Source: Anabaena sp. UHCC 0204 (GTDB lineage: Bacteria; Cyanobacteriota; Cyanobacteriia; Cyanobacteriales; Nostocaceae). Taken from it: a stretch of DNA of 48,037 nt. Positions 2,084 to 26,332 of this stretch are shown piece by piece. Position 1 is the first letter of the stretch. Each line of letters opens with the position of its first letter. The DNA lies in assembly GCF_009711975.1 (NCBI RefSeq), contig NZ_VIKW01000031.1, forward strand, positions 1-48,037, read 5' to 3'. A program made the translations under genes and the position numbers. Under the pieces are notes generated by a model. It saw only the letters and a list, made by a program, of their open reading frames with translations, did not search any database and was not told the DNA's origin.

Positions 2084-2116
2084 TTTATTTTGCTGGTTTA
2101 ATAGCTTTTAACTCCG

Positions 2117-2161
2117 CTATGTTTGCAGTGAGCAATGTCAGGGATAAACTATGTTTGCAGT
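2117..2161. repeat. 13-bp direct repeats near nifD element left end
   Basis: CTATGTTTGCAGT occurs at 2117-2129 and again at 2149-2161, 32 bp apart, between the recombination core and the recombinase gene. They could be accessory recombinase-binding or regulatory sites, but position is the only support. Confidence 0.4.
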
Positions 2162-2248
2162 TAACTCCTTTATTTTTTGTCTAAATATAGTCTGAAAGAT
2201 TCAGAGTTAAGTTTCGCGCAAAGGCGCAGAGGAGCAAAGACGCAAAGG

Positions 2249-3550
2249 ATGAAGGAACAGCTATTATGGGAAATACAGCAGGTAAATCTGCGTTTGAAGT
2301 CTGCGAAGACTAGGGTAACAATTCGGGAATCCAATGGATGTCTGCAATTACGGGCAACTTTACCTATTAAACCGGGAGATCAGGACACAAGGGGTACTGG
2401 AAGAAAACAATACAATATCACTTTGAATCTTCCGGCTAACTTTGATGGACTGAAAACGGCTGAAGAAGAAGCTTATGAATTAGGAAAGTTAGTTGCTAGG
2501 CAAACTTTTGTCTGGAATAATAAATATTTGGGAAATGAGGCAATTAAAAAGGATTTACGAACTATTGGTGAGTTATTGGGAAGGTTTGAGGAGGAATATT
2601 TTAAAACCCATAAACGCACTACTAAAAGTGAACATACTTTTTTCTATTATTTTTCTCGAATTAAGCGTTATACAAATGCTGATGATTTGGCAATTGGGGA
2701 AGTTTTGATTCATGCGATTGAAAAAATAGATAAGGAATGGGCTAAATATAATGCTGTGAGGGCTATTTCTGTTTTTTGTCAACTTTTTAAAATTGAGATC
2801 AATTTAACTAATTATTCTAAAGTACCTGAAAGTAATTCTCGCAATGTTCCTACTGATAAGGAAATAGTTACTGGATTTTACAAGTTTGATGAATATCTGC
2901 ATAATCGCGGTAAGCAAGTTAATCAAGATGTCAAAGATAGTTGGCAATTATGGCGTTGGACTTATGGAATGTTGGCGGTTTTTGGTTTACGTCCCCGTGA
3001 GCTTTTTGTTAATCCTCATATTGATTGGTGGTTAAGTGATGAAAATACAGATTTAACTTGGAAGGTTGATAAAGATTGTAAAACTGGTGAAAGGGAAGCT
3101 TTACCTTTATATAAGGAATGGATTAATGAATTTGATTTGAGAAATCCGAAGTATTTAGAAATGTTGGCAATAGCAATTAGTAAAAAAGACCAGAATAATC
3201 ATGCGGAAATCACGGCTTTAATTCAAAGGGTGAGTTGGTGGTTTAGAAAAATCGGTTTGAATTTTAAACCTTATGATTTACGTCATGGTTGGGCAATTAG
3301 AGCGCATATTTTGGGAGTTCCGATTAAGGCTGCGGCGGATAATTTGGGTCATAGTGTGCAGATTCATACGAAAACTTATCAACGTTGGTTTTCTTTGGAT
3401 ATGCGGAAGTTGGCAATTAATCAGGCTTTGAGTAAACGGAATGAGGTGGAGTTGATTAAGGATGAAAATACAGGGTTGAAAATGGAGAATGAAAGGTTGA
3501 AGATTGAGGTGGAGAAGTTGAGGATGGAAATGGTTTATAAACGGAGTTAA
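2249..3550 (+). CDS. xisA: XisA-type tyrosine site-specific recombinase of the nifD element
   Basis: Site-specific recombinase that should excise the nifD element in heterocyst development. Numbering from an in-frame TTG at 2177, the catalytic signature is Arg272 (FGLRPRE), Tyr366-x-x-Arg369 (PYDLRHGWAIR), His392 (LGHS) and nucleophile Tyr401 (TYQRWF). Tyrosine stands where most phage integrases have the first His of HxxR, a hallmark of the XisA/XisC family. The C-terminal ~35 residues form a Leu/Glu/Lys coiled coil. I prefer ATG 2249 (433 aa). The extension back to TTG 2177 is encoded by a common intergenic repeat (gcaaaggcgc type), and the paralogue's homology begins near the ATG. It lies beside the nifK-proximal boundary, as xisA does in PCC 7120, and is about half identical to the recombinase at 18639. 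Confidence 0.92.
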   Translation: MKEQLLWEIQQVNLRLKSAKTRVTIRESNGCLQLRATLPIKPGDQDTRGTGRKQYNITLNLPANFDGLKTAEEEAYELGKLVARQTFVWNNKYLGNEAIKKDLRTIGELLGRFEEEYFKTHKRTTKSEHTFFYYFSRIKRYTNADDLAIGEVLIHAIEKIDKEWAKYNAVRAISVFCQLFKIEINLTNYSKVPESNSRNVPTDKEIVTGFYKFDEYLHNRGKQVNQDVKDSWQLWRWTYGMLAVFGLRPRELFVNPHIDWWLSDENTDLTWKVDKDCKTGEREALPLYKEWINEFDLRNPKYLEMLAIAISKKDQNNHAEITALIQRVSWWFRKIGLNFKPYDLRHGWAIRAHILGVPIKAAADNLGHSVQIHTKTYQRWFSLDMRKLAINQALSKRNEVELIKDENTGLKMENERLKIEVEKLRMEMVYKRS

Positions 3551-3566
3551 GTAATGCACCATAACA

Positions 3567-3908
3567 CTATTTAAATGCTTCAATTTGATCCGAATAAACA
3601 TTAATTAGCTTGTGATCAATGACTAACATTTCAATCTCTGTCCAAACTTTAGCTAGAAATGAGTGAAATTCACGTTTTCGCATATTCCCAAAACGTAGAT
3701 GCACTATTTTAGGTGGAGAAGAATCAACCATCAACCGATCTGAAAAATCTGCATCTTTAGTAACAATCACCAATTCTTTTTCCTTTGCATACTCCCAGAT
3801 TTGGGTATCACTCGGACTATTACCTAAAATAGAAACATGAATTACGGGTAAAGATGGAGTAAATTGGATTTTAGTGGGGAGATTTTCATCAAATAAAAAC
3901 CCATTCAT
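3567..3908 (-). CDS. DUF5615 family PIN-like toxin
   Basis: Predicted toxin of a type II toxin-antitoxin pair (113 aa). The N-terminal FLFDENLP and the central IVTKDADFSD are the acidic motifs of the DUF5615 (Mut7-C-like, PIN-fold) family, whose members are presumed RNases. A longer reading frame opens at 3965, but the start at 3908 is favoured because ATGA at 3905-3908 overlaps the stop of the upstream DUF433 gene, the usual coupling in this pair. Convergent with xisA, with a 16-bp gap. Likely role: stabilising the element. Family assignment is firm; toxicity is inferred. Confidence 0.85.
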   Translation of the reverse strand: MNGFLFDENLPTKIQFTPSLPVIHVSILGNSPSDTQIWEYAKEKELVIVTKDADFSDRLMVDSSPPKIVHLRFGNMRKREFHSFLAKVWTEIEMLVIDHKLINVYSDQIEAFK

Positions 3909-4129
3909 GCAATTTTTCTCACTTCGTAATGATTCCCCATCAATTTTGCCGCAAATTGGATGCAAGCATAAATGTCTTCTCGTTCTAAAGATGGGTATTC
4001 TTCTAGAACTTCCTCGATAGAATCACCTGCACCTAAAAATTCTATAATTGTTTGTACAGAAATTCGAGTGTTAGTAATAACAGGTCTGCCATTGCAAATA
4101 TCTGGATGAATAGTTATTCGCTTTTCCAT
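3905..4129 (-). CDS. DUF433 family antitoxin
   Basis: 74-aa protein with the typical DUF433 pattern: ITIHPDICNGRPVITNTRIS followed by EEVLEEYPSLEREDI. DUF433 proteins are predicted antitoxins, with a DNA-binding-like fold, for DUF5615 toxins. The toxin gene follows with a 4-nt ATGA overlap, so the two are translationally coupled. Probably autoregulated through the AT-rich region upstream, as is usual for such modules; this is not visible directly. Confidence 0.88.
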   Translation of the reverse strand: MEKRITIHPDICNGRPVITNTRISVQTIIEFLGAGDSIEEVLEEYPSLEREDIYACIQFAAKLMGNHYEVRKIA

Positions 4130-4465
4130 AACGGTTTTTCCTTTTTATAAACCTAGTGTTAAGTAGCTAAGAATAATATTATTTTACATGATTATTAGCA
4201 TAATGTCATAGTTTTTGAATAAGAGTTTAAATATTGGATTAAATTGAATATTACAACATATAATTTTATCAAAAAATAGAAAGTGTACAGTATTAAAAGT
4301 ATATTTTAATATATTAAACTTTATGATGTATGTATATTTTTAGACCTTCTTGTATATAAAAGTTTTGTATAATAAGTAATTTCCATGTAGGTATTTAGTT
4401 AAACATATTGCTAAGATTCATGATTAGCAAGTTAACGATTATCAAAATCTTCTGAGGATACAGAT
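4130..4465. other. AT-rich divergent intergenic region
   Basis: 336 bp between the divergent antitoxin and helicase genes. It is extremely AT-rich with long A/T runs. A TATAAT box sits at 4368-4373 about 90 bp before the helicase start, and GAGGA at 4454-4458 is the helicase ribosome binding site. No open frame of note. Probably carries the promoters of both divergent units. Confidence 0.4.
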
Positions 4466-7400
4466 ATGACATATAGGCTCTTTGAAATTCCATCTGAAAA
4501 CGGTAATCACGCAGATATTGTTTGGGCTGATCCTGATAGCGGAGATCGCAACGCCTACACTCATATAGCCTATGCAATTGAAACAACGGACAGTGAAAAC
4601 AGCGTCATAGATGGGCGGGGTATTCGTTTCAAAAACTTACGTCGAAGGGGAATGATCAAGGAAAAATTTCCCGAATTATTTTTACGTCTTAAAGAAAAAC
4701 GCGCTTACTATCCAGGTGAAAGTGTTCTTGAGCAAAATGAATTAAAGCCTGATCATCATATTAAAACAGTTTTGAGGCTTGGTGCATTAGAGCTATTAGC
4801 AAATATTTATTCTGGGCGAATTACTGCTAGTGACAAAGATCCTTTTCCTCATCAACTAGCATTACAGCAGTATGTCAAAACTAAGGAATCTCGTATCAAA
4901 CGCATTTTGATTGCTGACGAAGTAGGCTTAGGCAAAACTATTGAAGTAGCTTTAATTTTAAGAGATAAGCTAATTACTCAAAAAGAGGATTTTCGTTGTC
5001 TTTATTTAACATCTGGCGGTTTGACAGAAGATGTTAAAGAAAAATTGCGTAGTGTAATTAAAGATTCTGGTGATGACAGCATTATTAGTGTTGTAGATTC
5101 TTTTAGAGATTATGGTGATTCTATTAGCCAGAAAGGTATTCGTATTGCTAGTATGCACGCAGCTAGACTATATCTTGAAGATAAAAGTAAAAAGCAATTA
5201 CCAGTAGGAATTAAGCCAAATATCATCATTATTGATGAGTGTCATCACTGTTCCAGCAATGATGATTTAAATGGTCAGTCTGTAGAATCGGCAACTTATA
5301 CAACACAAGCATATAAAGCTGCCTATCAAATGATTGCAGGTAAATTCTGGAAAGACTCTGAACCACCAGAGTTAGTAATTCTAATGAGTGCTACACCCTT
5401 TCGTTCTGCTAATCAATTTACAAATTTATTGCGATTACTGACACACCAAACAGCATTGACAAATGGCTATGCTAAAGATATTGGCAAAAATGAGCTTTTA
5501 GCAGCAATATCAAAAGATGATTCACCTGTAACAGTGATTTGGCGACAACAGGATGAGATTCGTAATTGGTTAGATAAGCGATTATTTCCTAAATTAAACA
5601 TAGTTCGTCCACACCGGGAAGGATCACCAACTCTTGAAAAAACTAATGAAGAATATCTATCAACATTAGAGAAAATCAAAAAAACTGTACAGAGAATTTA
5701 TCGAGATCATAATGATAGTTTTGGAGGTTTTGCTACTGCACATCTTGAAACTCGTTTGACAAGTAGTTCTTTAGCTGGTGCTTGTTGGTTATTTCGTTGG
5801 TCTGTCCGTCATCATCCTAAATGGCAAAACGAAAAAATGTATAAAGGAGATATATCAGATGATACAAAACAATTGAGAAGGTTAATTCGGGAGATTTCCA
5901 AATGCCTAGCAAAATTTGATGAGGATAGAGACATAGAATATGCTAAAGAGATTCTTTTTCCGTCTGACAGTAACTTTTCTTTTGGGTCTAAACATTTAGG
6001 AGAAGGTAGTATACCTCGAATTTACGAATTTCAGAAAACCATACTAGATAATATCAAGCGCAAAAATGATAACGACGACGATCCAGACTTGGAAGCAACA
6101 ATAGAGGAAATATTAGAAGTATCAGAATTAGCATTAAATTTATTGGCATCAGGTACAAGTGTGGAAAATGCCAAGCTGAACTGGCTAAGAGCTATGCTTG
6201 AAGAACACCCAGATTCTCGGTTTCTAGTCTTTACTGAAGTCCTACAAACTACTGCTATTATTACGGCAACTTTCCCAAAACAAAGTCTTGCCCTCACTGG
6301 TGGAATGAGTTCTGATGAGCGTAAGGAAGTAGTCAAGAAATTTTATGATCGCAACAAAAATTACCGTATCCTTGTAGCCACTTCTGCTGCGGATGAAGGA
6401 TTAGATTTTCAAGTAGCAAATAAAGTTGTGCATTGGGATATCAGTCCTGATCCTGCCATTTTAATGCAACGTAATGGGAGGGTTGCTCGCTTAGGACAAA
6501 TTTCCGACGTTACTGCTTATTACTTGATTTTAGAAGGTACACTAGCTGAAAAAAGAGATACTGCTTTATTAGACCGTCTAATCAAAGCAGGAGTAACAGA
6601 TCACCGGATGCAGCTTAAAATTTTAGGGCAACTTGATAATAAGCAGGAGGAAAAGATTATTAATGCAGTTGATGAAGCTAATGATAAGGGTAATGTAGAC
6701 GAAATTTTGAAAAAAGCCCAGGAACATAGCAATCTAATGGAGAAAGAACTCCGTAAATTAAATGAGCAAGAGCAACTAAAACTTCAATGGGTGCTTGATC
6801 GATATAAGCTACTCAAACGCCTGAAAGTTTGGCATGATTTAAATGTTACTGAATATGATCCTTACAGACATAAACTAGCTTTTGAGGCTAAAGAGTGGCA
6901 ACGTCCTGTTTTTGGGGAAGAGAAAACAGAAATGGAATCAGCAACTTCTGAAGTTCTGGTAATTTGGCAAGGTAGAGATAACAAATCTAAATTTAACTTT
7001 GATCCAGAATTTGGTCTTTTTAGCCAAGAAAAAAATCTCAATAAATTAGCAGGGTTGCTACCGTGGCTTTTAACAGAAACTGATGCAGGTATAAAACAAC
7101 ATAAGCCTATGATTGGAGCCGATCTAATAGGAAGTTTAACTCAATCTCTTGCTAGACAAAAACAAGCAGATTTTTTAGCTGTTTCGGCATACAACTTGTA
7201 CCAAAATTTTCCTAATTGTCAAGATTGTTCTTACTTGCTATTTGCAACTCATCCATTACGAGAACTGGAAAAAAGTAAATCATCAGATTCAGCTAAGTAT
7301 CTGACTTATTATTGTTTTACTACTACTGATTTTAGTCAACCTATGAATCCTGATGGTGCTTCTGCTAATGAAGTACATGAAATGATTACATTCTTAGAAA

Positions 7401-7582
7401 AAGAAATTACTCAAGGTGCAGTCTCTCTATCATTAGAAGAAATTGAACAGGCTAAATCAGTAGGAAAGGCAATTTCTCAATGGGTGCAGGATTCTTTGAT
7501 TATGGGTGGTGATAGTTTTCTTGATGAGGAGTCAAGTTATTTTGTAGCAATTCCTGTAGCCTTAGTTGCAATTGTTCATTAG
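4466..7582 (+). CDS. DEAD/SNF2-like superfamily II helicase, candidate defence component
   Basis: 1038-aa superfamily II ATPase. Motif I is ADEVGLGKT with Lys157, motif II is IIDECHH with Asp257-Glu258, motif III is MSATPF, and the C-terminal RecA domain ends in motif VI QRNGRVARLGQ (Arg669, Arg675). ADEVGLGKT and the motif VI form resemble RapA/SNF2-type translocases, as found in several defence systems. About 130 N-terminal residues and 340 C-terminal residues are not assignable. The start is set by GAGGA 8 nt upstream. Two small genes, an ATPase and a TOPRIM-like gene follow on the same strand, which suggests a multi-gene system. The substrate (duplex DNA translocation) is inferred. Confidence 0.85.
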   Translation: MTYRLFEIPSENGNHADIVWADPDSGDRNAYTHIAYAIETTDSENSVIDGRGIRFKNLRRRGMIKEKFPELFLRLKEKRAYYPGESVLEQNELKPDHHIKTVLRLGALELLANIYSGRITASDKDPFPHQLALQQYVKTKESRIKRILIADEVGLGKTIEVALILRDKLITQKEDFRCLYLTSGGLTEDVKEKLRSVIKDSGDDSIISVVDSFRDYGDSISQKGIRIASMHAARLYLEDKSKKQLPVGIKPNIIIIDECHHCSSNDDLNGQSVESATYTTQAYKAAYQMIAGKFWKDSEPPELVILMSATPFRSANQFTNLLRLLTHQTALTNGYAKDIGKNELLAAISKDDSPVTVIWRQQDEIRNWLDKRLFPKLNIVRPHREGSPTLEKTNEEYLSTLEKIKKTVQRIYRDHNDSFGGFATAHLETRLTSSSLAGACWLFRWSVRHHPKWQNEKMYKGDISDDTKQLRRLIREISKCLAKFDEDRDIEYAKEILFPSDSNFSFGSKHLGEGSIPRIYEFQKTILDNIKRKNDNDDDPDLEATIEEILEVSELALNLLASGTSVENAKLNWLRAMLEEHPDSRFLVFTEVLQTTAIITATFPKQSLALTGGMSSDERKEVVKKFYDRNKNYRILVATSAADEGLDFQVANKVVHWDISPDPAILMQRNGRVARLGQISDVTAYYLILEGTLAEKRDTALLDRLIKAGVTDHRMQLKILGQLDNKQEEKIINAVDEANDKGNVDEILKKAQEHSNLMEKELRKLNEQEQLKLQWVLDRYKLLKRLKVWHDLNVTEYDPYRHKLAFEAKEWQRPVFGEEKTEMESATSEVLVIWQGRDNKSKFNFDPEFGLFSQEKNLNKLAGLLPWLLTETDAGIKQHKPMIGADLIGSLTQSLARQKQADFLAVSAYNLYQNFPNCQDCSYLLFATHPLRELEKSKSSDSAKYLTYYCFTTTDFSQPMNPDGASANEVHEMITFLEKEITQGAVSLSLEEIEQAKSVGKAISQWVQDSLIMGGDSFLDEESSYFVAIPVALVAIVH

Positions 7583-7610
7583 ACGCTCGAATTTTCATCA
7601 ATTCTAAATA

Positions 7611-7639
7611 GCGATTCCTACGGAGTGTTTCGCTATCGC
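7611..7639. repeat. Interspersed palindromic repeat (copy in nifD element)
   Basis: A 29-bp hairpin-forming sequence, GCGATTCCTACGGAGTG... ending in TATCGC. A near-identical copy lies in the nifH element at 22196-22224. It is a typical cyanobacterial dispersed repeat and could act as a transcript stabiliser between the helicase gene and the small genes. Confidence 0.6.
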
Positions 7640-7701
7640 ACTCTCTCAAATCCCAAGTGACGGATGATAACAATTAAAGTCTAATCCCCACCATAACAAT
7701 T

Positions 7702-7917
7702 ATGAACGCTATAAAACTATTTCCCACTCTGCGAAATCTAAATCGTGCAGACAAACTAAAAGTAATGCAGTTTCTAGTTTCCGAATTATCTAGGGATGAA
7801 GAACCATCATTAGAACAGGGAGCAACCTATTCTATTTTATCACCGCTTAATTCCCATGCAGCCGCACATCAACTTGCTCAACTACTAGAAGCGGACGAAC
7901 AAAAGCACAATGGCTAA
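7702..7917 (+). CDS. Small hypothetical protein, 71 aa
   Basis: No function recognised. The product begins MNAIKLFPTLRNLNRADKL, is charged and mostly helical by composition, and has no membrane segment. It resembles short cyanobacterial proteins that precede toxin-like or nuclease genes. It starts 120 bp after the helicase and ends 52 bp before the next small gene, so it is probably co-transcribed. An ATG overlapping its end (cacaATGGCT) opens a frame that stops after four codons, possibly the remnant of a lost partner gene. Confidence 0.6.
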   Translation: MNAIKLFPTLRNLNRADKLKVMQFLVSELSRDEEPSLEQGATYSILSPLNSHAAAHQLAQLLEADEQKHNG

Positions 7918-7969
7918 ACTTTAAAGATTTTCCAATGATAAAATCAAGAAAACTAAAGATAATCCACCA

Positions 7970-8218
7970 ATGACAAATACACTCGTTAAACCATCCCAAT
8001 TATTACCTGAAGGAATCTGCATCAAGCATATCAACAACCTCATGCTATTCAAATTTACCGATAAGCTAGGGGAACGGATGCAAGAACTCCTTGATAAAAA
8101 CAAATTAAATACCCTCACTCCAGAGGAAGCAATAGAATTAGAGGCGATGGGGGAACTTGACGACATATTCAGTTATATTAACGCTGCTGTTGCTACTCAA
8201 AACCATGCCCATTACTAA
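7970..8218 (+). CDS. Small hypothetical protein, 82 aa
   Basis: Function unknown. The product contains LPEGICIKHINNLMLFKFTD followed by an acidic helix-rich stretch (NTLTPEEAIELEAMGELDDI). It is soluble and acidic, about the size of an antitoxin or small adaptor. It lies 30 bp upstream of the ATPase gene on the same strand and probably shares its transcript. It could be a regulator of the ATPase/TOPRIM pair; this rests on position only. Confidence 0.6.
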   Translation: MTNTLVKPSQLLPEGICIKHINNLMLFKFTDKLGERMQELLDKNKLNTLTPEEAIELEAMGELDDIFSYINAAVATQNHAHY

Positions 8219-8248
8219 AACTCTTTATCCATAGATATAGATAAAAAT

Positions 8249-9376
8249 ATGCTAGAAAAACTAATACTTCATAATTTCAAAAGCCATAAATCTACAGAAC
8301 TCAATTTTGACAATTCCCGATTACATGGAATTGTAGGAAAAAACAGTGCTGGTAAAACAACGGTTTTACAAGCTTTGTATAGTTTAAGTATGCTTACTCA
8401 TTCATTATCTACACAAATATTTGAAAATGAAAATTCACCTCAATTTATTACAACAATGGGTGAAAAAAGAATGTCTATAACTGCGAGTGGTTATTGGCAA
8501 GATAATTTTAAGAAAAAGTGGAAATTTTTCTACAGTATTGAAGAGGAAAAAATTTATAATTACAATTCCAGCATAATATTAAGTATAGATGGACATCAAT
8601 ATAATTGGGATCAAGATCCACGTTTTAGAGATATATCCAAGATTCCTCAATCTTTAAAAAATACTATCTATTTAAAATTAATTGCCAGCAACCTTGCCAA
8701 AGCAACTTACAGTGATGAAGTTACACCGAGAATTGAGTTCGATGGTTCAGGATTAGCACCCACTTTAGATTTTTTGCGTGATGAAGCTCCAGATCAATTT
8801 CAATTAATAGAAGAAAAATTGAGTCAAATTGTTCCAAATGTACGCAAAGTTGGCATCAAACGAGCAAAAGTTCCAGTCATTCGCAAACGTTTAATCGAAG
8901 TAGATGGTAAATCTATTTCCTATGAAGAAAATCAAGAAATGATAGGACAAGAAATTATATTAAATATGAATACAGGTGAACGTATTCCAGCCCATGCAAT
9001 TAGCGAAGGAACAATGTTAACTTTAGGATTATTAACTGTACTAATGAATCCTAATCAACCTAATTTAGTTTTATTAGATGATGTAGAACAGGGACTTCAT
9101 CCTAAAGCACAACGTGAGTTAATGACTGTTTTTAAAGAAATAATTGCCGAAAATCCTAACCTGCAAATTATTTTTTCTACTCATTCCCCTTATATTATTG
9201 ATGCACTTACTCCTTCTCAAGTCCACATATTAAATAACAGTAAATCAGGTTTTACAATTGCTAAACGTTTGGATGAACATCCTGATGTAGAATGGGCAAA
9301 AGAAACCTTAACGACTGGTGAATTTTGGGATGCTGAAGGTGAAGATTGGGTGGTAGAAGGAGAAGTCAGTGACTGA
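8249..9376 (+). CDS. OLD/RecF-like AAA ATPase, candidate defence component
   Basis: 375-aa ABC-type (SMC/RecF/OLD-like, AAA_15/AAA_21) ATPase. It begins LEKLILHNFKSHKSTELNF, the usual first strand of the family. Walker A is GKNSAGKTT (Lys36), the signature is AISEGT, Walker B is LLDDVEQGLHP (Asp277-Asp278, Glu280), and the switch histidine is STHSPY (His312). OLD proteins proper carry a C-terminal TOPRIM domain; here the chain stops after the ATPase and the next gene, overlapping by 8 nt, supplies a TOPRIM-like product. This two-gene split resembles the AriA/AriB arrangement of PARIS and ATPase-DUF4276 pairs. Family firm; defence role inferred from context. Confidence 0.88.
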   Translation: MLEKLILHNFKSHKSTELNFDNSRLHGIVGKNSAGKTTVLQALYSLSMLTHSLSTQIFENENSPQFITTMGEKRMSITASGYWQDNFKKKWKFFYSIEEEKIYNYNSSIILSIDGHQYNWDQDPRFRDISKIPQSLKNTIYLKLIASNLAKATYSDEVTPRIEFDGSGLAPTLDFLRDEAPDQFQLIEEKLSQIVPNVRKVGIKRAKVPVIRKRLIEVDGKSISYEENQEMIGQEIILNMNTGERIPAHAISEGTMLTLGLLTVLMNPNQPNLVLLDDVEQGLHPKAQRELMTVFKEIIAENPNLQIIFSTHSPYIIDALTPSQVHILNNSKSGFTIAKRLDEHPDVEWAKETLTTGEFWDAEGEDWVVEGEVSD

Positions 9377-10142
9377 GTTTATTGTCATAGTTGAAAGTGG
9401 TGCAGATGCCAGAATAGCGACTAAATTAGCCGAGCGAGTTTTGCAGGAAAAATTCGATTGGTTAGATAATGATATTCTGCAACATTGTTTTCAGTGGACT
9501 GGTTTAGAGGAAGGGACAGAATTTTCTTGTTGGAGAGACATTAGAAAAATTATTGATGATGCAAAAAAACAACTAAAATATAATGAACCCAGATATTTAG
9601 GTCATTATAGTAAGGGTGTATCTTTAGAAGCTGATGGAGCAGCATCTATCAAGATTCTTAATTTAGTACGTTTTTTGCAAAAAACACGACATATTAAAGC
9701 TGTTATTTTTATCCGTGATTTAGATAATCAACCGGAACGTAAAGAAGGAATTGAGCAAGCACGTTCAGCACATATTAATAAAACGCCGAAATTAGAAATT
9801 ATCATTGGTGCGGCTGATCCAAAACGTGAAGCATGGGTTTTAAATGGGTTTATTTCATCTAATCAACAAGAGGAACAAATTCTCGAAGAAATCAAAAATA
9901 AATTGAGTTTTGATCCTTGCATAGAGTCTCATAGATTACGTGCTACTTCTGAGAAAGAACCTGAACGAATCAGAAATGTAAAAGTAGTTGTTGAACAACT
10001 TACAGGAAATATGGAACGGGAAAAGCAGTGTTGGGAAGATACAAGTTTAAAACATTTACGAGAAAGAGGAGTTGATACGGGTTTGACAGATTATATCTGT
10101 GAAGTTGAGGAACGATTAGCTGCAATTATTTTATCTGAATGA
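9369..10142 (+). CDS. TOPRIM/DUF4276-like protein paired with ATPase
   Basis: 257-aa product starting with GTG at 9369, inside the end of the ATPase gene (8-nt overlap), so translation is coupled. The N-terminal strand FIVIVESGAD carries an acidic residue (Glu9). A DxD motif is at FIRDLDN (Asp117, Asp119), followed by PKREAWVLNGF (Glu154). This order (E...DxD...E-x-W) fits the TOPRIM-like fold of DUF4276/DUF4435 proteins, which act as nucleases or effectors beside OLD-type ATPases. The C-terminal third (EKEPERIRNVKVVVEQLTG onwards) is unassigned. Fold assignment is from motifs only; a catalytic role is inferred. Confidence 0.7.
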   Translation: MTEFIVIVESGADARIATKLAERVLQEKFDWLDNDILQHCFQWTGLEEGTEFSCWRDIRKIIDDAKKQLKYNEPRYLGHYSKGVSLEADGAASIKILNLVRFLQKTRHIKAVIFIRDLDNQPERKEGIEQARSAHINKTPKLEIIIGAADPKREAWVLNGFISSNQQEEQILEEIKNKLSFDPCIESHRLRATSEKEPERIRNVKVVVEQLTGNMEREKQCWEDTSLKHLRERGVDTGLTDYICEVEERLAAIILSE

Positions 10143-10185
10143 GGAATATTATAGAGTTGAGTGCGATCGCGAAATATGAACAGCA

Positions 10186-10279
10186 GGCGTTGCTAAGTCG
10201 CAATATGAATTAGTTTCGTCAAAAAGTACAAAAAACGTAATTTTGGCATTTCATATTCAATATGGCTATCAGCAACGCC
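10186..10279. repeat. MITE-like inverted repeat block
   Basis: Terminal inverted repeats GGCGTTGCT (10186-10194) and AGCAACGCC (10271-10279) bracket 94 bp that includes further imperfect inverted matches (GCAATATGAAT / ATATTCAATATGG). It sits between the TOPRIM-like gene and the end of the FABP-like gene. No target-site duplication was identified. Confidence 0.45.
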
Positions 10280-10299
10280 AAATATCAAGCCCTATTTGT

Positions 10300-10698
10300 T
10301 TAAGCTCTCTTGAATGTTCTCGTTGCAGTGACTTCGTTCGTTGTCATAGTCATGATCATTTGATCGCTAGTAAACTTTGTGGAAGACGTAGAAGAGGTAT
10401 CCTCAACCTTCTTAGTCACCAAGGTGTCACCCCCTTCCAAAGTAGTGATGTATTTGTCAACTTTGTTCGTTCCTGGGTCACAATCATACTCTTTTCCCAA
10501 GGTAAAACTAATCTTGATAGTCTTTAGATTGGTGACGGTGGTGATGGTAAAGTTGTCGCCGTCAATCTCCACAATCATGTCTGGCGTGGTTTTTGCCAAC
10601 ACCGTTCGCGTTATCATCCCAACATTTTCAGCCTTCAAGTAGTCCTCGAAGTTTTCTTGGGAAACAAAGCTATATTTTCCGGCTATTTGTACAGTCAT
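10300..10698 (-). CDS. Animal-type fatty-acid-binding protein (intracellular lipid-binding family)
   Basis: 132-aa protein with the whole FABP/iLBP pattern: GKYSFVSQENFEDYLKAENV (strand A and helix I), MITRTVLAKTTPDMIVE, DGDNFTITT, KISFTLGKEYD, TLEGGDTLV, and the C-terminal TATRTFKRA. Arg127-x-Phe129 stands at the place of the family's Arg-x-Tyr carboxylate-binding pair; the second usual arginine, near residue 107, is Thr/Lys. No signal peptide, so a cytosolic lipid carrier is expected. The family is essentially metazoan. Codon use differs from neighbours: AAG outnumbers AAA, C-ending codons are frequent, and GC is about 42% against clearly AT-richer surroundings. This suggests acquisition from an animal source or a long-diverged bacterial branch. 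Start ATG at 10698 follows a weak GAAAG. It is not part of an operon. Confidence 0.85.
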   Translation of the reverse strand: MTVQIAGKYSFVSQENFEDYLKAENVGMITRTVLAKTTPDMIVEIDGDNFTITTVTNLKTIKISFTLGKEYDCDPGTNKVDKYITTLEGGDTLVTKKVEDTSSTSSTKFTSDQMIMTMTTNEVTATRTFKRA

Positions 10699-10892
10699 GA
10701 TGAAACTTTCATATAATTCAGATTGAAAAGAACTATATTTGAAAATTGGTGTTTAGTCAAGAGTTTGTTTAGCTCTTCTACGCCATGTTAACTCATCCAG
10801 AATATAATCTAAAGTCTTCTAGAATTACGAATTTCCCTCGATCTTATTCTAAAATATCTCTGCTGTGAGACGAGACACTAAACGGAACTAAT

Positions 10893-11159
10893 TTAGCGAC
10901 GAAAACCTTTTCCAACAGAACTTGCAACTATTATGGGAACTGCAAATCCTACCCCCAATAAAACAAGTAATGACAGAATGCTTTTGGTATTTATTTCCAA
11001 CTGTGAACACCTATTTGGTAAAGTACAATTCGTCGGTCCAATGGCAAAGGCAAACCAAACAGATACATACAAGCAAAACGGAAAAAAACAGATGAAGATT
11101 ACACAACTAGATAGACAAACAGCCAATTTGCTATTTTGATTTGTCCTAAAATGTTTCAT
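10893..11159 (-). CDS. Small predicted membrane protein, 88 aa
   Basis: Two strongly hydrophobic segments are visible: about residues 13-40 (LAVCLSSCVIFICFFPFCLY and onward) and about 61-80 (SILSLLVLLGVGFAVPIIVA), joined by a short loop with two cysteines (NCTLPNRC) and ending in basic KGFRR. This fits a small two-span inner-membrane protein with the loop possibly disulfide-bonded. No family recognised. It lies on the same strand as the FABP-like gene, about 195 bp upstream of it, so co-transcription is possible. It might instead be a chance frame; the hydrophobic pattern argues for a real gene. Confidence 0.5.
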   Translation of the reverse strand: MKHFRTNQNSKLAVCLSSCVIFICFFPFCLYVSVWFAFAIGPTNCTLPNRCSQLEINTKSILSLLVLLGVGFAVPIIVASSVGKGFRR

Positions 11160-11344
11160 TTTTTCAGTCTGTTAATGCTGTTTAAAAATTGAGATAACGG
11201 CGTTAAAATTTATGCACTACAGTAGATGAATATTTAATTGTAGCATTTTTCACTCTATAACTTTTATTAAAATATACTTTAATAACCTGAAAATAGTTGT
11301 AATTGTAGTTGCTATAATCAAAACAAACTTAAAAAAATCCTGAT

Positions 11345-11935
11345 ATGATAGCCATTCCCCAACAACCGCAAAAAATGACCATTGAGGAATATCTCCAATG
11401 GGAACTTGACCAAGATATTCGCTATGAATACATAAACGGCGAAGTCTTTGCCATGACTGGTGGTACAATTCCCCATAATGATATTGCTCTCAATCTTTAC
11501 AGACCTCTATACTCTCATCTGCGTCCTAGAGGTTGTCGAGTCAATGTATCAGATGTGAAAGTACAAGTAACCCCTAAAAGTCCATACTTCTATCCTGATA
11601 TTATCGTCAGTTGTCACCCTGAAGACCTCAACGCCCGTAAATTTATTCAAAATCCCAAATTAATTGTTGAAGTTCTTTCTCCTGGTACAAGCAGTAAAGA
11701 TAGAGGTGAAAAATTCAGATATTATCTAACAATGCCCAGTTTACAAGAATACATCTTAATTGATTCTGAAAAAATATCCGTTGAACGTTATTGTCGAGGA
11801 GAAGGAAGAATGTGGCTTTATTATCCCTACACTGCTGGAGACATCATCACTTTATCAAGTATCGAATTTGAATTTCCGATAGAAATGCTTTATGATGGTG
11901 TTGGATTGGAAACTGAATCACCACAATACAATTAA
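11345..11935 (+). CDS. Uma2 family protein (DUF820, PD-(D/E)xK nuclease fold)
   Basis: 196-aa Uma2/DUF820 protein, a family greatly expanded in cyanobacteria with a restriction-endonuclease-like fold but unproven function. Family features seen: MTIEEYLQWE near the N-terminus, YEYINGEVFAMTGGT, the acidic strand PYFYPDIIVSC, and the core LIVEVLSPGTSSKDRGEKF, giving the D...ExL-type active-site arrangement, then YILIDSE. Full length. Single gene on the plus strand after a 185-bp spacer. Family certain; biological role unknown. Confidence 0.9.
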   Translation: MIAIPQQPQKMTIEEYLQWELDQDIRYEYINGEVFAMTGGTIPHNDIALNLYRPLYSHLRPRGCRVNVSDVKVQVTPKSPYFYPDIIVSCHPEDLNARKFIQNPKLIVEVLSPGTSSKDRGEKFRYYLTMPSLQEYILIDSEKISVERYCRGEGRMWLYYPYTAGDIITLSSIEFEFPIEMLYDGVGLETESPQYN

Positions 11936-11991
11936 CATATTCTAGCAAATAAATATTACTGTAAAATCAAATTTAGTGACTTATTACGATT

Positions 11992-12570
11992 ATGACAAAA
12001 CGTAAAAAAACCAAGTTTAAGTGGATTAAAGAAACTCTGGAATTAAAACCAGATCATCATTGGGAATCTCCCCCAGAATATAATATTTTTGTCGCAGGTA
12101 GAGGGGCTGTACGTTTCAATGTTCCTCGCGGTTGGATATCTGAACCACAGGAAAAATCATTTAAGTTCATGGATAAGAAACCACCTGATGATGATTGTTG
12201 TTTAGAGGTATCTTACAATCATTTACCAGCTAATGATTGGACTCTATTTCCTCTCAAATCTACTTTAAAAAAAATCATGGAAAATGATAGCCGTGATGTG
12301 ATTGAAAGAGGAGAAGTGATTACCGTCAAGCGACAAACTGCCAGAATTATGTGGTGTGAAATTAAATTTATTGATACTCAAGCAGAACCAAGGGAAGCTT
12401 TTTCTCGGACTTGCGTGGGTTTAGGTTCTAATATTCAATGTTTAATTACCTTTGATTATTGGGCAGATCAAGCAGAACAATTAATACCTGTTTGGGATGA
12501 AGTGATGCGGAGTTTGACACTGGGATTATATATCAGAGATCCGAGAACTGGTTTAGCTTTCCCAGATTAA
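11992..12570 (+). CDS. Hypothetical protein, 192 aa (possible PsbP/DcrB-like fold)
   Basis: Not confidently recognised. After a lysine-rich start (MTKRKKTKFKWIKE) the product contains RFNVPRGWISEPQEKSFKF and later DYWADQAEQLIPVWDEVMRS. That resembles the layout of the Mog1/PsbP/DcrB-like fold used for small stress or lipoprotein-like factors (a `P-x-G-W` strand early and a `W-x-x-V-x-x-S` helix late). There is no signal peptide. It starts 56 bp after the Uma2 gene on the same strand and could be co-transcribed. The fold guess is weak. Confidence 0.65.
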   Translation: MTKRKKTKFKWIKETLELKPDHHWESPPEYNIFVAGRGAVRFNVPRGWISEPQEKSFKFMDKKPPDDDCCLEVSYNHLPANDWTLFPLKSTLKKIMENDSRDVIERGEVITVKRQTARIMWCEIKFIDTQAEPREAFSRTCVGLGSNIQCLITFDYWADQAEQLIPVWDEVMRSLTLGLYIRDPRTGLAFPD

Positions 12571-12724
12571 AATGCCGAGAAAACAACCTGATCTTGAGTT
12601 TTTTATCACAAGTAGAAATTGTTAGTTTGAAAAGTTGTGGATGTTAGTCAACATTATGTTCAATATTTTGGGTAAACTAGAAGCGACAAAATAACCCATT
12701 GCACAGATTAGTAATTCAATATTC

Positions 12725-13240
12725 ATGGCAAATCCCACCGCAACTCTGGAAACTTCCCTTGGTACTATTACTCTTGAGCTATTCACCGATGTTATGCCCA
12801 TAACGGCTGGAAATTTCATCAAATTGGCTAAAAGTGGCTTTTATGATGGTCTCCATTTCCACCGTGTGATTAAAAACTTCATGGTGCAATTTGGTTGTCC
12901 TCACAGTAAAGATCCTAGCTCTCCTCGTGCGGGAACGGGTAATAGTCCTGATGGGTGCATTCAAGATGAGCATCCTGAAGACGGGAAAATTTCCAATGAA
13001 CCAGGAACTCTGTCTATGGCTAATACGGGGGCCCCTAATAGTGGAAGTTGCCAGTTTTTCATCAACACTGTCCACAACTCCTATTTAGATTGGTTTACAG
13101 CCGGTCAATCCAAGCATCCTGTTTTTGGTCGAGTTACTGAAGGCATGGATGTATTGAAAGCCATTGAAACGACTCCAACGGGACAAGGCGATCGCCCAAA
13201 AACTCCAGTTAAAATGATCAAAGTTACAATTCACGAATAA
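12725..13240 (+). CDS. Cyclophilin-type peptidyl-prolyl cis-trans isomerase
   Basis: 171-aa cytosolic cyclophilin. Conserved active-site stretches are visible: [15 protein letters not shown] (catalytic Arg), [20 protein letters not shown] (substrate pocket), and [14 protein letters not shown]. It lacks a signal peptide, so it should act on cytoplasmic proteins by isomerising Xaa-Pro bonds. It is close to the standard size for the bacterial PpiB type. It is a housekeeping-type gene as cargo of an excisable element, flanked by unrelated genes, and would be redundant with a chromosomal copy. Function certain; why it sits here is unknown. Confidence 0.95.
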
Positions 13241-13342
13241 ACAGAAAAATTGGTGCGGAGATTTTCTCCGCACATATCTTCAGGCAAAATTCCCTGTTTC
13301 TCATGAAAGAACTCCACATAAAAACTAATCCGATCAAACCAA

Positions 13343-13918
13343 CTAACCTTGAGTTTCTTCTTCAGTAAAAATAGGAGGCCATAATTCAGAAACAGCTAAT
13401 TCCCAACCTGGAAAAAGTTCAGGTAAAGTTAAAATATCGCCATTGATTAAAACAGTTGGTTCACCTTGATGACGATAAACTGTTACAGTCTCCTCATCAG
13501 GATCAATTAAAATTCCAATCACAGCACCTAAGTTTATAAAGTTGAGAATTTTAGTAACTAAAGGTTTAATTCTATCACTTTGAGATTTAATTTCTACTAC
13601 TAAATCTGGTACAAGTTCACCAAAATAACGGGGACTTTGACGCAGACGTGCAGCCCGAACAAAAGAAACATCTGGTGCGGTGAGATTGCTATCAGGTAAA
13701 ATAAAACCACCAGCAGAATCAAATACTCTTCCTAAACGACGGGGATAAACCCAATTAGCTAATAGTCGGCTAAAAAGAATACCAACTTCACTAGATACAA
13801 TATCTGATGGACCCACAATAGAAATTCTCCCGTTTGTTAACTCAACATCATAATCTAAGCCGGCTTCACTAAAAGCAGTTTGGACTTGTTCTACATCTTT
13901 GATTGTCATTACTTGCAT
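13343..13918 (-). CDS. Uma2 family protein (DUF820)
   Basis: 191-aa Uma2 protein with a nuclease-like fold and no proven function. Signature segments: GGFILPDSNLTAPDVSFVRA (acidic strand), PDLVVEIKSQSDRIKPLVTK (core E-x-K, so the catalytic triad D...ExK is complete here), and IGILIDPDEETVTVYR. It is only distantly similar to the other two Uma2 proteins in this element. Minus strand, 65 bp downstream of the next Uma2 gene (13984-14739), so the two may form a small operon. RBS candidate AGGAGAAA lies just upstream of the ATG. Confidence 0.9.
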   Translation of the reverse strand: MQVMTIKDVEQVQTAFSEAGLDYDVELTNGRISIVGPSDIVSSEVGILFSRLLANWVYPRRLGRVFDSAGGFILPDSNLTAPDVSFVRAARLRQSPRYFGELVPDLVVEIKSQSDRIKPLVTKILNFINLGAVIGILIDPDEETVTVYRHQGEPTVLINGDILTLPELFPGWELAVSELWPPIFTEEETQG

Positions 13919-13983
13919 AAAATTTTCTCCTAATATACAAAGTTGGCGTAATTAAACCAAACACAATTTGATTTTATATTTCA

Positions 13984-14739
13984 TTAAATTGTATCTGGAT
14001 CAATATTCAACTCTCTTAATTTTGCGGCTAACCTTTGAGATTTTTCATTTGATATTTTCGCTCTTTCTGCTTCCATTGCTGCTCTTTTAGCTTCAATTTC
14101 TGCTCTTGTTGCTTCCATCTCTGCGCTTTGTTCCGGTGTAGGAACTAAAACTCCTGATGATGTAAAATATCTTAACAAACCCTCATGAATTCCTAAATAT
14201 AAACCCAATTCTTCACTCCATAAATATCCTTTTTCGTTAGGTTTTAAGGGTTGATATTTGCCACTGATTAAATTAAATCCTGCAAATTCTAATGTATAAG
14301 GATCAAACCAAAAATAATCAGGTGTACGGAAAGTATCTTGATAAAGTAGTTTTTTAGTTTCTCTATCAGTTTTAGCTGTAGTTGGTGAAAGAATTTCGAC
14401 AATGACATGAGGATATTTGCCATTTTCTTCCCACACTACCCAACTTTTTCTAGTTTTTCGTTCTGTTCCTAAAACTACGAAAAAATCTGGACCTCTAACA
14501 TCTTCTGATTTCTTTTGATGAGGACTATAGTAAATACTCAGGTTTCCGACAGCATAAAAATCAGTTCTCTCTTTCCATAACCATTCTAAACATTTGAAAA
14601 GGAGAATAATTTGACGTAAATGCAGTTCTGTTTCCACGGGAGGTTCATCACTATATAGGTCACTGGGGGGAAAAATGATATCCTCTGATATATCTTCTAA
14701 GGTGTTAGTTTGTAATTCCAGTGCTTGAGTAATCATCAT
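13984..14739 (-). CDS. Uma2 family protein with C-terminal charged coiled coil
   Basis: 251-aa Uma2/DUF820 protein. The core HVIVEILSPTTAKTDRETKK and the acidic strand RGPDFFVV identify the family. The last ~45 residues are a charged repeat (EMEATRAEIEAKRAAMEAER) likely to be a coiled coil, ending in KLRELNIDPDTI. The nifH element carries a close relative (20168-20860), most of whose residues match by eye and which ends in the same dozen residues, but with the coiled coil shortened by about 20 residues. Function unknown. Confidence 0.9.
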   Translation of the reverse strand: MMITQALELQTNTLEDISEDIIFPPSDLYSDEPPVETELHLRQIILLFKCLEWLWKERTDFYAVGNLSIYYSPHQKKSEDVRGPDFFVVLGTERKTRKSWVVWEENGKYPHVIVEILSPTTAKTDRETKKLLYQDTFRTPDYFWFDPYTLEFAGFNLISGKYQPLKPNEKGYLWSEELGLYLGIHEGLLRYFTSSGVLVPTPEQSAEMEATRAEIEAKRAAMEAERAKISNEKSQRLAAKLRELNIDPDTI

Positions 14740-14884
14740 GATATGATACCAAGTAATTATTTGTTTATTGTAGCATTAATTGTCAGAATCAGGATATCCA
14801 GGATTTTATGTATTATTAATCATTTATGATTATTGTGACGCGATCGCGCTAAAATAAAATTGGTACTTAATTGTTGAAATAAAA

Positions 14885-15109
14885 ATGGAAGTTCTTCAAC
14901 TAACAACAACAGTGGATTCGTCAGGTCATTTGCACCTTGACATTCCCACACAACTTAATCCGGGACAAGTAAATATTGTGCTGGTAATTAATCCAGTTGT
15001 TGCATCTAAAGATCAAAATCTGAAGTATGATTTTTCTCATTTGGTAGGACGGTTAAATTGGCAAGGAGATGCAGTATTGATGCAAAGGACATTACGAGAT
15101 GAATGGTAA
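14885..15109 (+). CDS. VapB-like antitoxin
   Basis: 74-aa protein beginning with a short beta-rich segment (VLQLTTTVDSSGHLHLDIP, AbrB/DUF104-like in pattern). It lies immediately before and overlaps by 11 nt a PIN-domain gene, the standard position of a VapB antitoxin. It should bind its PIN toxin and repress the shared promoter. The family call rests mainly on context. Confidence 0.75.
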   Translation: MEVLQLTTTVDSSGHLHLDIPTQLNPGQVNIVLVINPVVASKDQNLKYDFSHLVGRLNWQGDAVLMQRTLRDEW

Positions 15110-15476
15110 TCGCTATGTACTAGATACGAATGCAATCATCGCGCTTTTGCAAGGAAATACCCAACTTATTCAGTTACTTCAAAATGCTAATTGGATTGGA
15201 ATTTCGATTATTAGCCAGATTGAATTTTTAGTGTTTTCTGGGCTAACGGAAAGCGATATTCAACTGTTTCAACAATTTATTGAGCAAGTGGAAATTGTTG
15301 GTTTGACAGCGAGCGATGCCTTATTAGTTGAGAAGATTATCGAAATTCGTCAGCAATATCGGTTAAAATTACCTGATGCGGTGATTGCCGCAATAACAAT
15401 CCAAAATTCAGCAAGTTTAGTGACTGCTGATCAAGAATTTGCAAAAATAAACACTTTGCCTGTGATTAATTGGTAG
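15099..15476 (+). CDS. PIN-domain RNase toxin (VapC-like)
   Basis: 125-aa PIN-domain protein. The first acidic residue is in YVLDTNAIIALL, the central Glu in ISQIEFLVF, and the distal acidic cluster in KLPDAVIAAITIQNSASLVTADQEF. These are the metal-binding positions of VapC-type ribonucleases, which cut tRNA or rRNA when the antitoxin is lost. Its ATG lies inside the antitoxin gene. Acts with the 14885 gene as a likely addiction module of the nifD element. Confidence 0.88.
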   Translation: MNGNRYVLDTNAIIALLQGNTQLIQLLQNANWIGISIISQIEFLVFSGLTESDIQLFQQFIEQVEIVGLTASDALLVEKIIEIRQQYRLKLPDAVIAAITIQNSASLVTADQEFAKINTLPVINW

Positions 15477-15492
15477 CGATCGCCTCCTATAA

Positions 15493-15689
15493 CAGGGGAA
15501 ACGCATCTAAATTTTATTGACAAAATACCGTTTTAATGTATAAACCAAGAAATCCTAATTTATCGTTTGATTGATTTTTCAGGGTCATAGTGATGGACTA
15601 AAATATTGTCAATAAGTGGTCGTTAATGCGAATATTTTGGTCATTATATGAGATTGAATTGCCCTTATTGATAAGATGCGTTTCCCCTG
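15493..15689. mobile_element. MITE-like insertion with 16-bp terminal inverted repeats
   Basis: CAGGGGAAACGCATCT at 15493-15508 and its exact complement AGATGCGTTTCCCCTG at 15674-15689 bracket about 197 bp of AT-rich non-coding DNA. The right end lies inside a decayed ISKra4-type transposase frame, exactly where its homology to the family ends. The left end follows the PIN toxin gene by 16 bp. No clear target-site duplication is visible, because the transposase does not continue on the other side. Confidence 0.6.
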
Positions 15690-16009
15690 CACTTGCTCTC
15701 AAGCAACATTGCTCTAAATAAGGACTTATTTTTTGATTGTTTTCTAGTTTTAACTTTCGTGCTTGTTTTTCACTGACTGGCAATTCTCCAAGAATGCTTT
15801 TTATTATTCTTACTCTTCCCGATGAAGTTCCTGTTGCTTCTTTGAGAAAAAAACCCCTAATTCTGGCGTAATATATTCTAAAGTCTGCTAAGAATTGTTC
15901 TTTCAATTCCTGCTAAACTCTCTAATTCTTCAGTTTTTGCTTCTTGATATAGAATTCCGGCTATGGCTTTGAGATGCTCCTGGAGTTTTTTCTGATTAGC
16001 TGGTTCCAT
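15674..16009 (-). pseudogene. ISKra4-type transposase remnant (5' part, frameshifted)
   Basis: The minus-strand reading from ATG 16009 gives MEPANQKKLQEHLKAIAGIL and then runs through LESLAGIERTI. The frame then shifts at about 15890-15900 and continues as FFLKEATGTSSGRVRIIKS, LPVSEKQARKLKLENNQKIS and LEQCCLRASA. This is the N-terminal part of ISKra4-family transposases as I recall them. It stops at the MITE-like repeat; the remaining frame to 15598 is MITE sequence, and the catalytic part is missing. Non-functional IS debris near the right end of the nifD element. Confidence 0.7.
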
Positions 16010-16531
16010 GATTGAGATGCTCCCTTGATTTCTTCCTTTATTTTCGCTGATTTTCACCCCTGTCTGCTAGTTCATCTGTTCTAACAAACTTGAAATGCTC
16101 CCACTCTCAAGTCCCAAAAGCGCAATGTTTTGGAGTTTATGACTCAAGCTGTTGTTGCGGCTCGTGGCTCTACAACTGTACCTTCTTTGCTTCCAGAAAA
16201 TGCTACTTGTTCTGATGATTCTGACTTGTTGAAAGCTGCTTAATTTTATTGCTTGATTTTGGGGGTTGTTTTTCGTTTTCTTTACACCCTCTGAACGGTT
16301 ACTAAAAATTTAACGTACACCATACTATTTAGTCTATAAAACCAACCTACAAAAAGTTATCAAATTTAACCAAATCACCAAACATCAAAACTTAATAACC
16401 ATCTCAAACTCAGACAAAATCAGACTTTTACTACTTGCAGTTATCCACAAACAATGTTATTATCAAACATAATAAATTACATTTAGTCTAAAAATCAAAT
16501 TCTCTTAATTCCCCAACCAAAAAACCTCAAA
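16010..16531. other. Right-end non-coding region of nifD element
   Basis: 522 bp without a convincing gene. It holds three copies of a GA(G/A)ATGCTCC motif at roughly 15972, 16014 and 16091. A 34-codon open frame lies at 16139-16243 (product begins MTQAVVAARGSTTVPSLLPE), possibly the tail of a lost gene. An A/C-rich, C-poor-on-complement stretch follows, down to the nifD 5' part. Accessory recombination sites would be expected here, but I could not define one. Confidence 0.4.
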
Positions 16532-17926
16532 TTAACGCACCTTTCCACCAACATAATCAAGTTCGGAGTAATCCCAAGAGTGCATTTGACGGAAAGGAAG
16601 ACCCATCTTTTGGAAGACATACTTCTCTTTCACACCAGAAGCAACTAAGTCTGGCTTCAATGCTTTGATGAATTCTTCAAATTCGTAAGCGGTAACGTCG
16701 TCATAAACGATAGTTCCGTTTTCGATGTAGTTGGTAGTACGTTTGTAGTCGTCATTATGAGCGAACTCATAACCAGTACCAATCATCTTCATTCCTAAAT
16801 CTTGGAAAGCGGGAACAACGTGACGAGGACGTAGACCACCAACCATCATTGCTACAGTCTTACCTTCCAAACGGGGGCGATATTTAGAAACGATCGCATC
16901 CATGGTAGGTTGGTACTTAGCAATTACTTTTTCAGCATTTGCTTGGATCTTCGCGTCAAACTTGGAAGCAATTTCACGTAAAGATGCAGCAATCTTGGTA
17001 GGACCGAAGAAATTATATTCTAACCAGGGTATACCATAAGCTTCTTCCATGTGACGGCTGATGTAGTTCATCGAGCGGTAACAGTGGATGAGGTTCATCT
17101 TCACGTTGGGGGTCATCAACATTTCGTTGATTGTACCATCACCAGACCATTGAGCAACAACGCGCAAACCGATTTCTTCTAATAAGATCCGGCTGGCCCA
17201 AGCGTCACCACCGATGTTGTAGTCACCAATGATGGCTACATCATAAGGAGTTCCTTCAAACTTCAATGTTCCGTCTTTCTTAGCTTGATCTGCTCTGGGG
17301 AATACCCAGTCACGAATCATGTCGTTAGCGATGTGGTGTCCTAAAGACTGAGACACACCACGGAAACCTTCGCAACGGACGGGAATAACTGGCTTACCAA
17401 TTTTTTTGGAGGTGTTTCTAGCTACTGCTTCGATGTCATCCCCAATTAGACCGATAGGACATTCAGATTGAATAGAAACCCCACGATTCAAGGGGAATAA
17501 TACATCTAATTCTTCAATTAACTTGGTGAGTTTCTTGTCTCCACCAAAAACGATGTCGCGTTCTTGGAAGTCGGAGGTGAAGTGCATAGTACCAAAGGTA
17601 TCAATACCTGTTGTACCTAAGTAGTAGTTACGACGACCAGACCAAGACCAGTAACCGCAACCTACAGGACCGTGGCTGATGTGGATCATGTCCTTGATAG
17701 GACCCCAAACCACACCCTTAGAACCTGCGTAAGCACAACCACGAGCGGTCATTACACCAGGTAAGGATTTGATGTTAGATTTAACACCACAATCAGCCTT
17801 ACCTTCTTCATATACATTTAAATGCTTCTCGCGCTTTTTAGCAGCTTTTTCGGGGTAAGCTTTCAGAACTTCTTTAACTAGTTCTTTTCTTTGTTCAACA
17901 ATCTTCTTGTCATCTGGAGGAGTCAT
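16532..17926 (-). CDS. nifD: NifD 5' part (nitrogenase MoFe protein alpha chain), interrupted by element
   Basis: Encodes 454 residues of NifD plus 10 residues read into the element ([13 protein letters not shown] at 16532). P-cluster ligands lie in [26 protein letters not shown] and [15 protein letters not shown]. The FeMo-cofactor cysteine is in [13 protein letters not shown] and the FeMo-cofactor histidine in RQMHSWDYS, only a few codons before the junction. The truncated product therefore keeps all ligand residues but lacks the 47-residue C-terminus encoded at 1934-2083. ATG at 17926 has AGAGAGA, and further out AGGAG, upstream. It follows nifH by 158 bp. Functional only after excision of the 14.5-kb element. 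Confidence 0.97.
16564..16570. repeat. nifD element right recombination core (CGGAGTA)
   Basis: Direct repeat of 2077-2083, overlapping nifD codons Tyr-Ser. Here it is part of the longer GGATTACTCCG (complement of 16564-16574), identical to the 11-bp site known from the Anabaena PCC 7120 nifD element. Confidence 0.9.

Positions 17927-18084: not shown

Positions 18085-18567
<483 letters not shown>

Positions 18568-25385: not shown

Positions 25386-26332
<947 letters not shown>

Follow-up and report, generated by a model that had tools for sequence, protein, structure and literature searches.

Fatty-acid-binding proteins (FABPs), members of the iLBP family, have been regarded as animal proteins: according to a 2020 study, FABP genes were known up to then from vertebrates and invertebrates alone (PMC7193176), and the passages and abstracts of open-licence literature that we searched yielded no publication on a bacterial FABP like the one reported here. 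Two Streptomyces plasmids (NZ_CP109451.1 and NZ_CP071045.1) nevertheless carry genes of the same family, whose records read 'lipocalin/fatty-acid binding family protein', so bacterial members are already known to databases. The protein studied here, P0001, is encoded in a 48,037-nucleotide stretch of Anabaena sp. UHCC 0204 DNA (the window) and is 32% and 31% identical to the two plasmid proteins. Squid ReP1-NCXSQ (PDB 3ppt; 3pp6 is its Y128F mutant) is 36% identical, matches over residues 3-130 and resembles P0001 in the lid-helix region and in Arg126, but has Arg106 and Tyr128 where the window protein has Thr and Phe. FABP4 and the heart-type vertebrate FABPs align ungapped with its core and share Arg126, although FABP4 is only 35% identical, has the Arg106 that P0001 lacks and reads DDRKVKS in place of TNKVDKY. 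Liver-type FABP1 shares the GKY..SQENFE and TMT stretches at 33% identity, but its alignment is gapped and it is absent from the best 60 of 243 phmmer matches. The setting also has a described counterpart, because the element of Anabaena PCC 7120 likewise interrupts nifD; its cargo, CYP110, is reported to bind long-chain fatty acids (PMC1079853), and such elements have been surveyed across 38 genomes (PMC4874684). The PCC 7120 element is 11 kb long with a P450, whereas that of the window measures 14.5 kb, holds the FABP gene and has no P450 among the eight ORFs scanned.

A preliminary description of this DNA had placed an iLBP/FABP gene at 10300-10698 without giving its strand. The reading frame was borne out and lies on the minus strand, where it spans 132 codons; the plus-strand reading of the interval is interrupted by an in-frame stop. 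All of the quoted motifs (NFEDYLKAENV, DGDNFTITT, ISFTLGKEYD and a terminal R-x-F, here R-T-F) were found in P0001. A phmmer search of the PDB returned 243 sequences at E<=0.01, of which the best 60 were all FABPs or named kin, with squid ReP1-NCXSQ at the top (E 9.8e-22) and FABP4 at about 1e-20. Global alignments to seven animal iLBPs scored 90-215, whereas none of 500 shuffles scored above 63, and P0001 exceeded the Pfam cut-off for PF14651 (26.6 versus 25.4 bits), while PF00061 was not reported for it at E<=0.01. These similarities, far beyond chance, mark P0001 as a genuine FABP/iLBP family member as judged from its sequence; the family is a known one, and the host and location are unusual for it. 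Profile coverage of its bacterial relatives (described below) was uneven: the copy in genome G369 was above the cut-off for both PF00061 and PF14651 and that in G245 for PF00061 only, the relative in G155 was below the Pfam cut-off, that in G049 had no Pfam match, and none of the seven bacterial proteins matched NCBIfam. A PROSITE-type FABP signature matched nine of ten PDB rows and none of the seven bacterial rows, with P0001 departing, as read by eye, at the last of 18 positions; a pattern of this kind does not strictly delimit the family. P0001 matched no PHROG and no PADLOC model, and a defence role was dropped on the latter result.

As the preliminary description had held, the gene resides in an excision element within nifD. 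The element (2077-16570; 14,487 bp between core starts) is bounded by 7-bp core repeats, TACTCCG, on the minus strand at 2077-2083 and, within GGATTACTCCG, at 16564-16570; it is at this core that the nifD halves meet. The 5' part of nifD (16532-17926, minus strand; Pfam and flank joining) reads into the element, and nifK (165-1700, minus strand; Pfam) lies beyond its other end. Joining the flanks in silico produced a 501-codon nifD frame with the expected NifD C-terminus. Adjoining the left core is a tyrosine-recombinase-like gene (2177-3550, plus strand) that matches PF00589 at 21.1 bits, below the cut-off of 27.1, and that from its position would be XisA-like. Core repeats, a recombinase-like gene at one end and restoration of nifD together establish that the element is real. 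The preliminary description had also entertained a lipid theme on these elements by analogy with the P450 of PCC 7120; the basis of that theme is the published CYP110 of the PCC 7120 element, and the eight ORFs scanned here had no match to a Pfam P450 model. In the nearby nif DNA, nifH is split too, with its N-terminal part at 25676-26113 and its C-terminal part at 18085-18483 on the minus strand, and between them lie a second recombinase-like gene (18639-20066) and a Type ISP/IIG restriction-modification enzyme (22284-25385).

The FABP gene occupies a variable cargo slot of the element. The backbone, consisting of the recombinase, an AAA_21-type ATPase (8249-9376, plus strand; Pfam and PADLOC) with its partner ORF (9369-10142, plus strand; no Pfam match) and a Uma2-family gene (11345-11935, plus strand; Pfam), recurs in related genomes, and comparison with seven related loci, two of which (L035 and L036) have nif genes on both sides, placed the slot at 10151-11308, between the partner ORF on the left and the Uma2-family gene on the right. 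Its length ranges widely, from 10 bp in G251 (L032) through 1,440 bp in L035, 2,976 bp in L033 and 3,051 bp in L034 to 5,505 bp in L036, and ORFs other than FABP fill it in L033-L036. The slot is thus an exchange hotspot among related elements, and by eye its cargo includes PIN/antitoxin pairs, a slipin/SPFH-like protein and a short-chain dehydrogenase. Slot DNA near the FABP gene (10810-10901 and 10907-11166) matches slots or loci of related genomes. A short repeat adjoins the gene at 10239-10285 and is matched in part at 16 further sites of this genome; together with 10160-10200 it resembles, by eye, the paired termini of a small inverted-repeat element, a pair that the repeat search did not list. 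Elsewhere in the element, the region 4466-10142 includes a helicase weakly like defence helicases, and the ATPase and its partner resemble AriA/HEC-01-type defence ATPases in PADLOC.

Homologues of P0001 are rare. At the level of the order, P0001 was matched in 6 of 388 sampled genomes, in one case by a fragment, and a mixed alignment query had matches in 5 of the 388. The near group comprises the window copy and two Planktothrix copies, in Planktothrix sp. UBA8402 (G369; 76% identical) and in G245 (72%). These are the only intact copies among ten Planktothrix genomes; another of the ten, G075, has a decayed 3' remnant, and all ten match a query for the wider locus in some part. The same HAD-phosphatase-like gene (named by eye) accompanies the FABP locus in all three: adjacent in G369, at a distance of some 2 kb in G075 and of some 11 kb in G245, where the two genes share a contig and a giant ORF separates them. 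This pattern fits old residence in Planktothrix with loss, although three genomes of ten are thin evidence. A wider contig scan with the close alignment and two short peptide patterns recovered a single locus, the UBA8402 contig, and has little bearing on distant relatives. Other nifD elements, in which the preliminary description had suggested that homologues be sought, were dropped as carriers, as matches occurred in 1 of 217 genomes of the window's family, namely its own, and in 1 of 16 genomes of its genus; the FABP gene is therefore no general component of the nifD elements of Nostocales. A phage origin was likewise dropped after 0 matches in 50,697 phage records, none confirmed in two scans of viral contigs and no PHROG.

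Presence in a single family genome would be expected if the gene were an assembly artefact or eukaryotic contamination, and the preliminary description had allowed for a contaminant absent from independent genomes. The ORF, however, sits inside a 48-kb contig with cyanobacterial flanks, next to slot segments that match related genomes, and intact homologues stand among bacterial genes in the two independent Planktothrix assemblies, making contamination a very unlikely source, to which we attach almost no weight.

Comparison at the DNA level revealed that the window and UBA8402 share more than the coding sequence. A promoter-plus-gene cassette on the minus strand (10292-10769) is 83% identical to UBA8402 DNA and takes in 71 bp upstream of the start codon, ending just upstream of a -35-like box; homology to G245 is shorter (10292-10718, 81%). 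The cassette contains a promoter-like TTGACT-17-TATAGT (10732-10760, minus strand), kept in UBA8402 as TTGACT..TATATT with the boxes 17 bases apart, whereas G245 is without that stretch. The promoter scan found 6 such sites in the region versus 3.7 +/- 2.0 in shuffles, so that the match alone is not significant and it is conservation alone that speaks for a promoter.

Synonymous divergence indicated that the gene moved between the window lineage and Planktothrix. FABP dS between the window and the two Planktothrix copies was 0.42 and 0.55, well below the 1.09-1.74 measured for 11 phycobiliprotein pairs of the same genomes, and therefore the gene crossed between lineages after their split. Between the two Planktothrix copies, FABP dS was 0.33, inside the range of five phycobiliprotein pairs (0.24-0.75). 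The phycobiliprotein pairs were matched by best identity with orthology unchecked, and those below 65% identity were dropped, leaving 5 of 8 own loci for G369 and 6 of 8 for G245. Because only 1 of the 217 family genomes has a match, the likely direction of transfer is into the window genome, a direction that we infer from this count together with the neighbourhood shared by three of ten Planktothrix genomes. Our proposal is that the cassette belonged to Planktothrix, or to some unsampled relative from which Planktothrix received it as well, and entered the variable slot of this cyanobacterium's nifD element, where it encodes an iLBP that would probably act as a carrier of fatty acids or similar lipids; as a whole, we regard this account as probable, if well short of certain. 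The FABP gene would then be a clear-cut example of genes passing from one bloom-forming cyanobacterium to another and into an element that is predicted to be excised during development.

The preliminary description had offered horizontal transfer from a eukaryote such as an aquatic grazer. A history of transfer was upheld, but among the genomes searched the closest source is a second bloom cyanobacterium. Had this cyanobacterium acquired the gene directly, and at a fairly recent date, from an aquatic animal such as a grazer, a mollusc or a fish, that would account for the best solved matches of P0001 being animal proteins and for its identity of 34-36% to squid, FABP4, locust and fly FABPs versus 28-32% to four distant bacterial rows. 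Composition has been read the same way: GC3 of the gene is 0.52, above the 0.16-0.41 of the 22 window ORFs measured. However, the closest copies are those of Planktothrix, at 72-76% identity with bacterial flanks (in collections searched without eukaryotic genomes), the gene is intronless, and its bacterial-type promoter is common to UBA8402. The claim that codon usage sets the gene apart held only in part, since GC3 does exceed that of its neighbours, but the native nifK and nifD favour AAG and GAC to a similar degree and use ACC more than the FABP gene does, a profile that is not clearly eukaryotic. GC3 was 0.50-0.55 in the three near-group copies, compared with 0.37 (window), 0.46 and 0.45 in the phycobiliprotein genes of the same genomes; such a composition could reflect either a foreign source or high expression. 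We thus consider direct animal donation improbable, although an older animal source upstream of Planktothrix is possible. Overall, the observation made in the preliminary description was confirmed, and its interpretation was partly supported.

The FABP protein is under purifying selection of moderate strength. Across the three FABP pairs dN was 0.12-0.15. In neutral simulations with the same base changes (400 per pair), the two window-Planktothrix pairs had fewer amino-acid differences than expected (32 versus a mean of 42.2, and 37 versus 47.4), with 0 of 400 simulations as low in each case; the signal was weaker for the Planktothrix-Planktothrix pair (31 versus 38.5; 3 of 400 as low). These results bear on whether the transferred gene is a neutral passenger with no role in this host and heading to decay, as its patchy distribution, the decayed 3' remnant in G075 and the free exchange of slot cargo might suggest. 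Although the selection could be mainly Planktothrix-side, the ORF is intact, the promoter-like sequence is conserved and amino-acid changes fell below all simulations in both window-Planktothrix pairs; a passenger is accordingly a rather unlikely reading. Because cyanobacteria have intact FABPs under selection, and two genera have close copies, the question of where this much-studied family arose becomes testable in bacteria.

The ligand site is only partly canonical. The preliminary description had read the terminal motif as a carboxylate pair; in the ungapped alignment with FABP4, Arg126 is kept, but Arg106 is replaced by Thr (by Ile in the two Planktothrix copies) and Tyr128 by Phe. Counting Met, these positions are Thr107, Arg127 and Phe129 of P0001, which therefore retains one of the three residues of the carboxylate-site triad (Arg106, Arg126 and Tyr128). 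That triad is not universal among iLBPs, FABP1 being an example, and a ligand site of FABP1 type was considered as an alternative for P0001. A fatty acid or similar carboxylate is the simplest guess from the residues present, and on our proposal the product would probably be a soluble protein that carries or buffers free fatty acids, or a comparable carboxylate lipid, with Arg127 (the equivalent of FABP4 Arg126) anchoring the ligand inside the barrel. If P0001 does bind fatty acids, it would represent a type of intracellular lipid carrier undescribed for these bacteria in the literature searched. The Thr or Ile at the Arg106 position means that the ligand may differ from that of canonical FABPs. 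Bilins and carotenoids are abundant in cyanobacteria. An iLBP for a bilin, a carotenoid derivative or a retinoid-like molecule is consistent with the altered Arg106 position and the Phe at Tyr128 throughout the near group, and FABP relatives from eel are reported to bind bilirubin (PMC4641735). As Arg126 is kept, in the manner of carboxylate binders, we hold such a ligand to be the less likely choice, but a serious rival to a fatty acid. AlphaFold models of P0001 from a two-row alignment showed, at low confidence (pLDDT 48.3 and 43.2), a single helix and nine strands, ordered as expected, compared with the ten-stranded barrel and helix-turn-helix lid typical of the family. A Foldseek search with the first of these, itself partly sequence-driven, ranked CRABP2 and FABP4 at the top (E 4.7e-7, TM about 0.56), with poor superpositions (rmsd mostly 13-15); the predicted iLBP fold thus rests on sequence and not on the models.

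Four more distant bacterial relatives were found: one in G155, from another cyanobacterial family (L011:10208-10624), one in G049 and the two Streptomyces plasmid genes. The best PDB match was CRABP2 for G155 (1e-21) and 8wkh for G049 (1e-7), and animal FABPs were the best matches of the protein from Streptomyces NBC_01471. In the cyanobacterial class, the mixed alignment matched 2 of 291 genomes, G049 and, weakly, G494, where a 152-aa ORF (L015:1453-1911; E 6e-4) is perhaps a distant lipocalin-like protein. In a 17-row tree, which left out G494 and one FABP4-variant row, the near group was fully supported, 10 of 14 inner branches were open and G049 formed a long branch. These relatives raise the alternative that the window copy had no animal donor and belongs to an old branch of bacterial iLBPs with a sparse distribution across cyanobacteria and actinobacteria. 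Consistent with this, the relatives in G155 and G049 stand among bacterial-type genes and others on two Streptomyces plasmids, G155 and Streptomyces CA-256286 are 39% identical and each closer to the other than to P0001, and forcing the seven bacterial rows into one clade cost 3.03 log units and was not rejected (p-AU 0.256). Yet the bacterial rows did not form one clade in the free tree, where most forks were without support, the animal best matches of G155 and NBC_01471 are as expected from several separate animal gains, and matches are confined to 6 of 388 order genomes. An old bacterial branch is therefore possible rather than probable, and neither the 3-row nor the 17-row set can settle the origin of bacterial FABPs. 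More speculatively, bacteria might hold a thinly scattered iLBP reservoir, in cyanobacteria and on Streptomyces plasmids, that moves as promoter-plus-gene cassettes on mobile DNA, with animal FABPs deriving from a prokaryotic branch or having exchanged genes with it more than once; we put this forward tentatively, as an idea with the balance against it. Were it true, a family described as animal-only would have a prokaryotic branch. The plasmid gene of Streptomyces sp. CA-256286 (L008:7851-8384) encodes an N-terminal extension that, by eye, resembles a signal peptide, and the genes on one side of it recur in mirror image on the other, forming a large inverted repeat.
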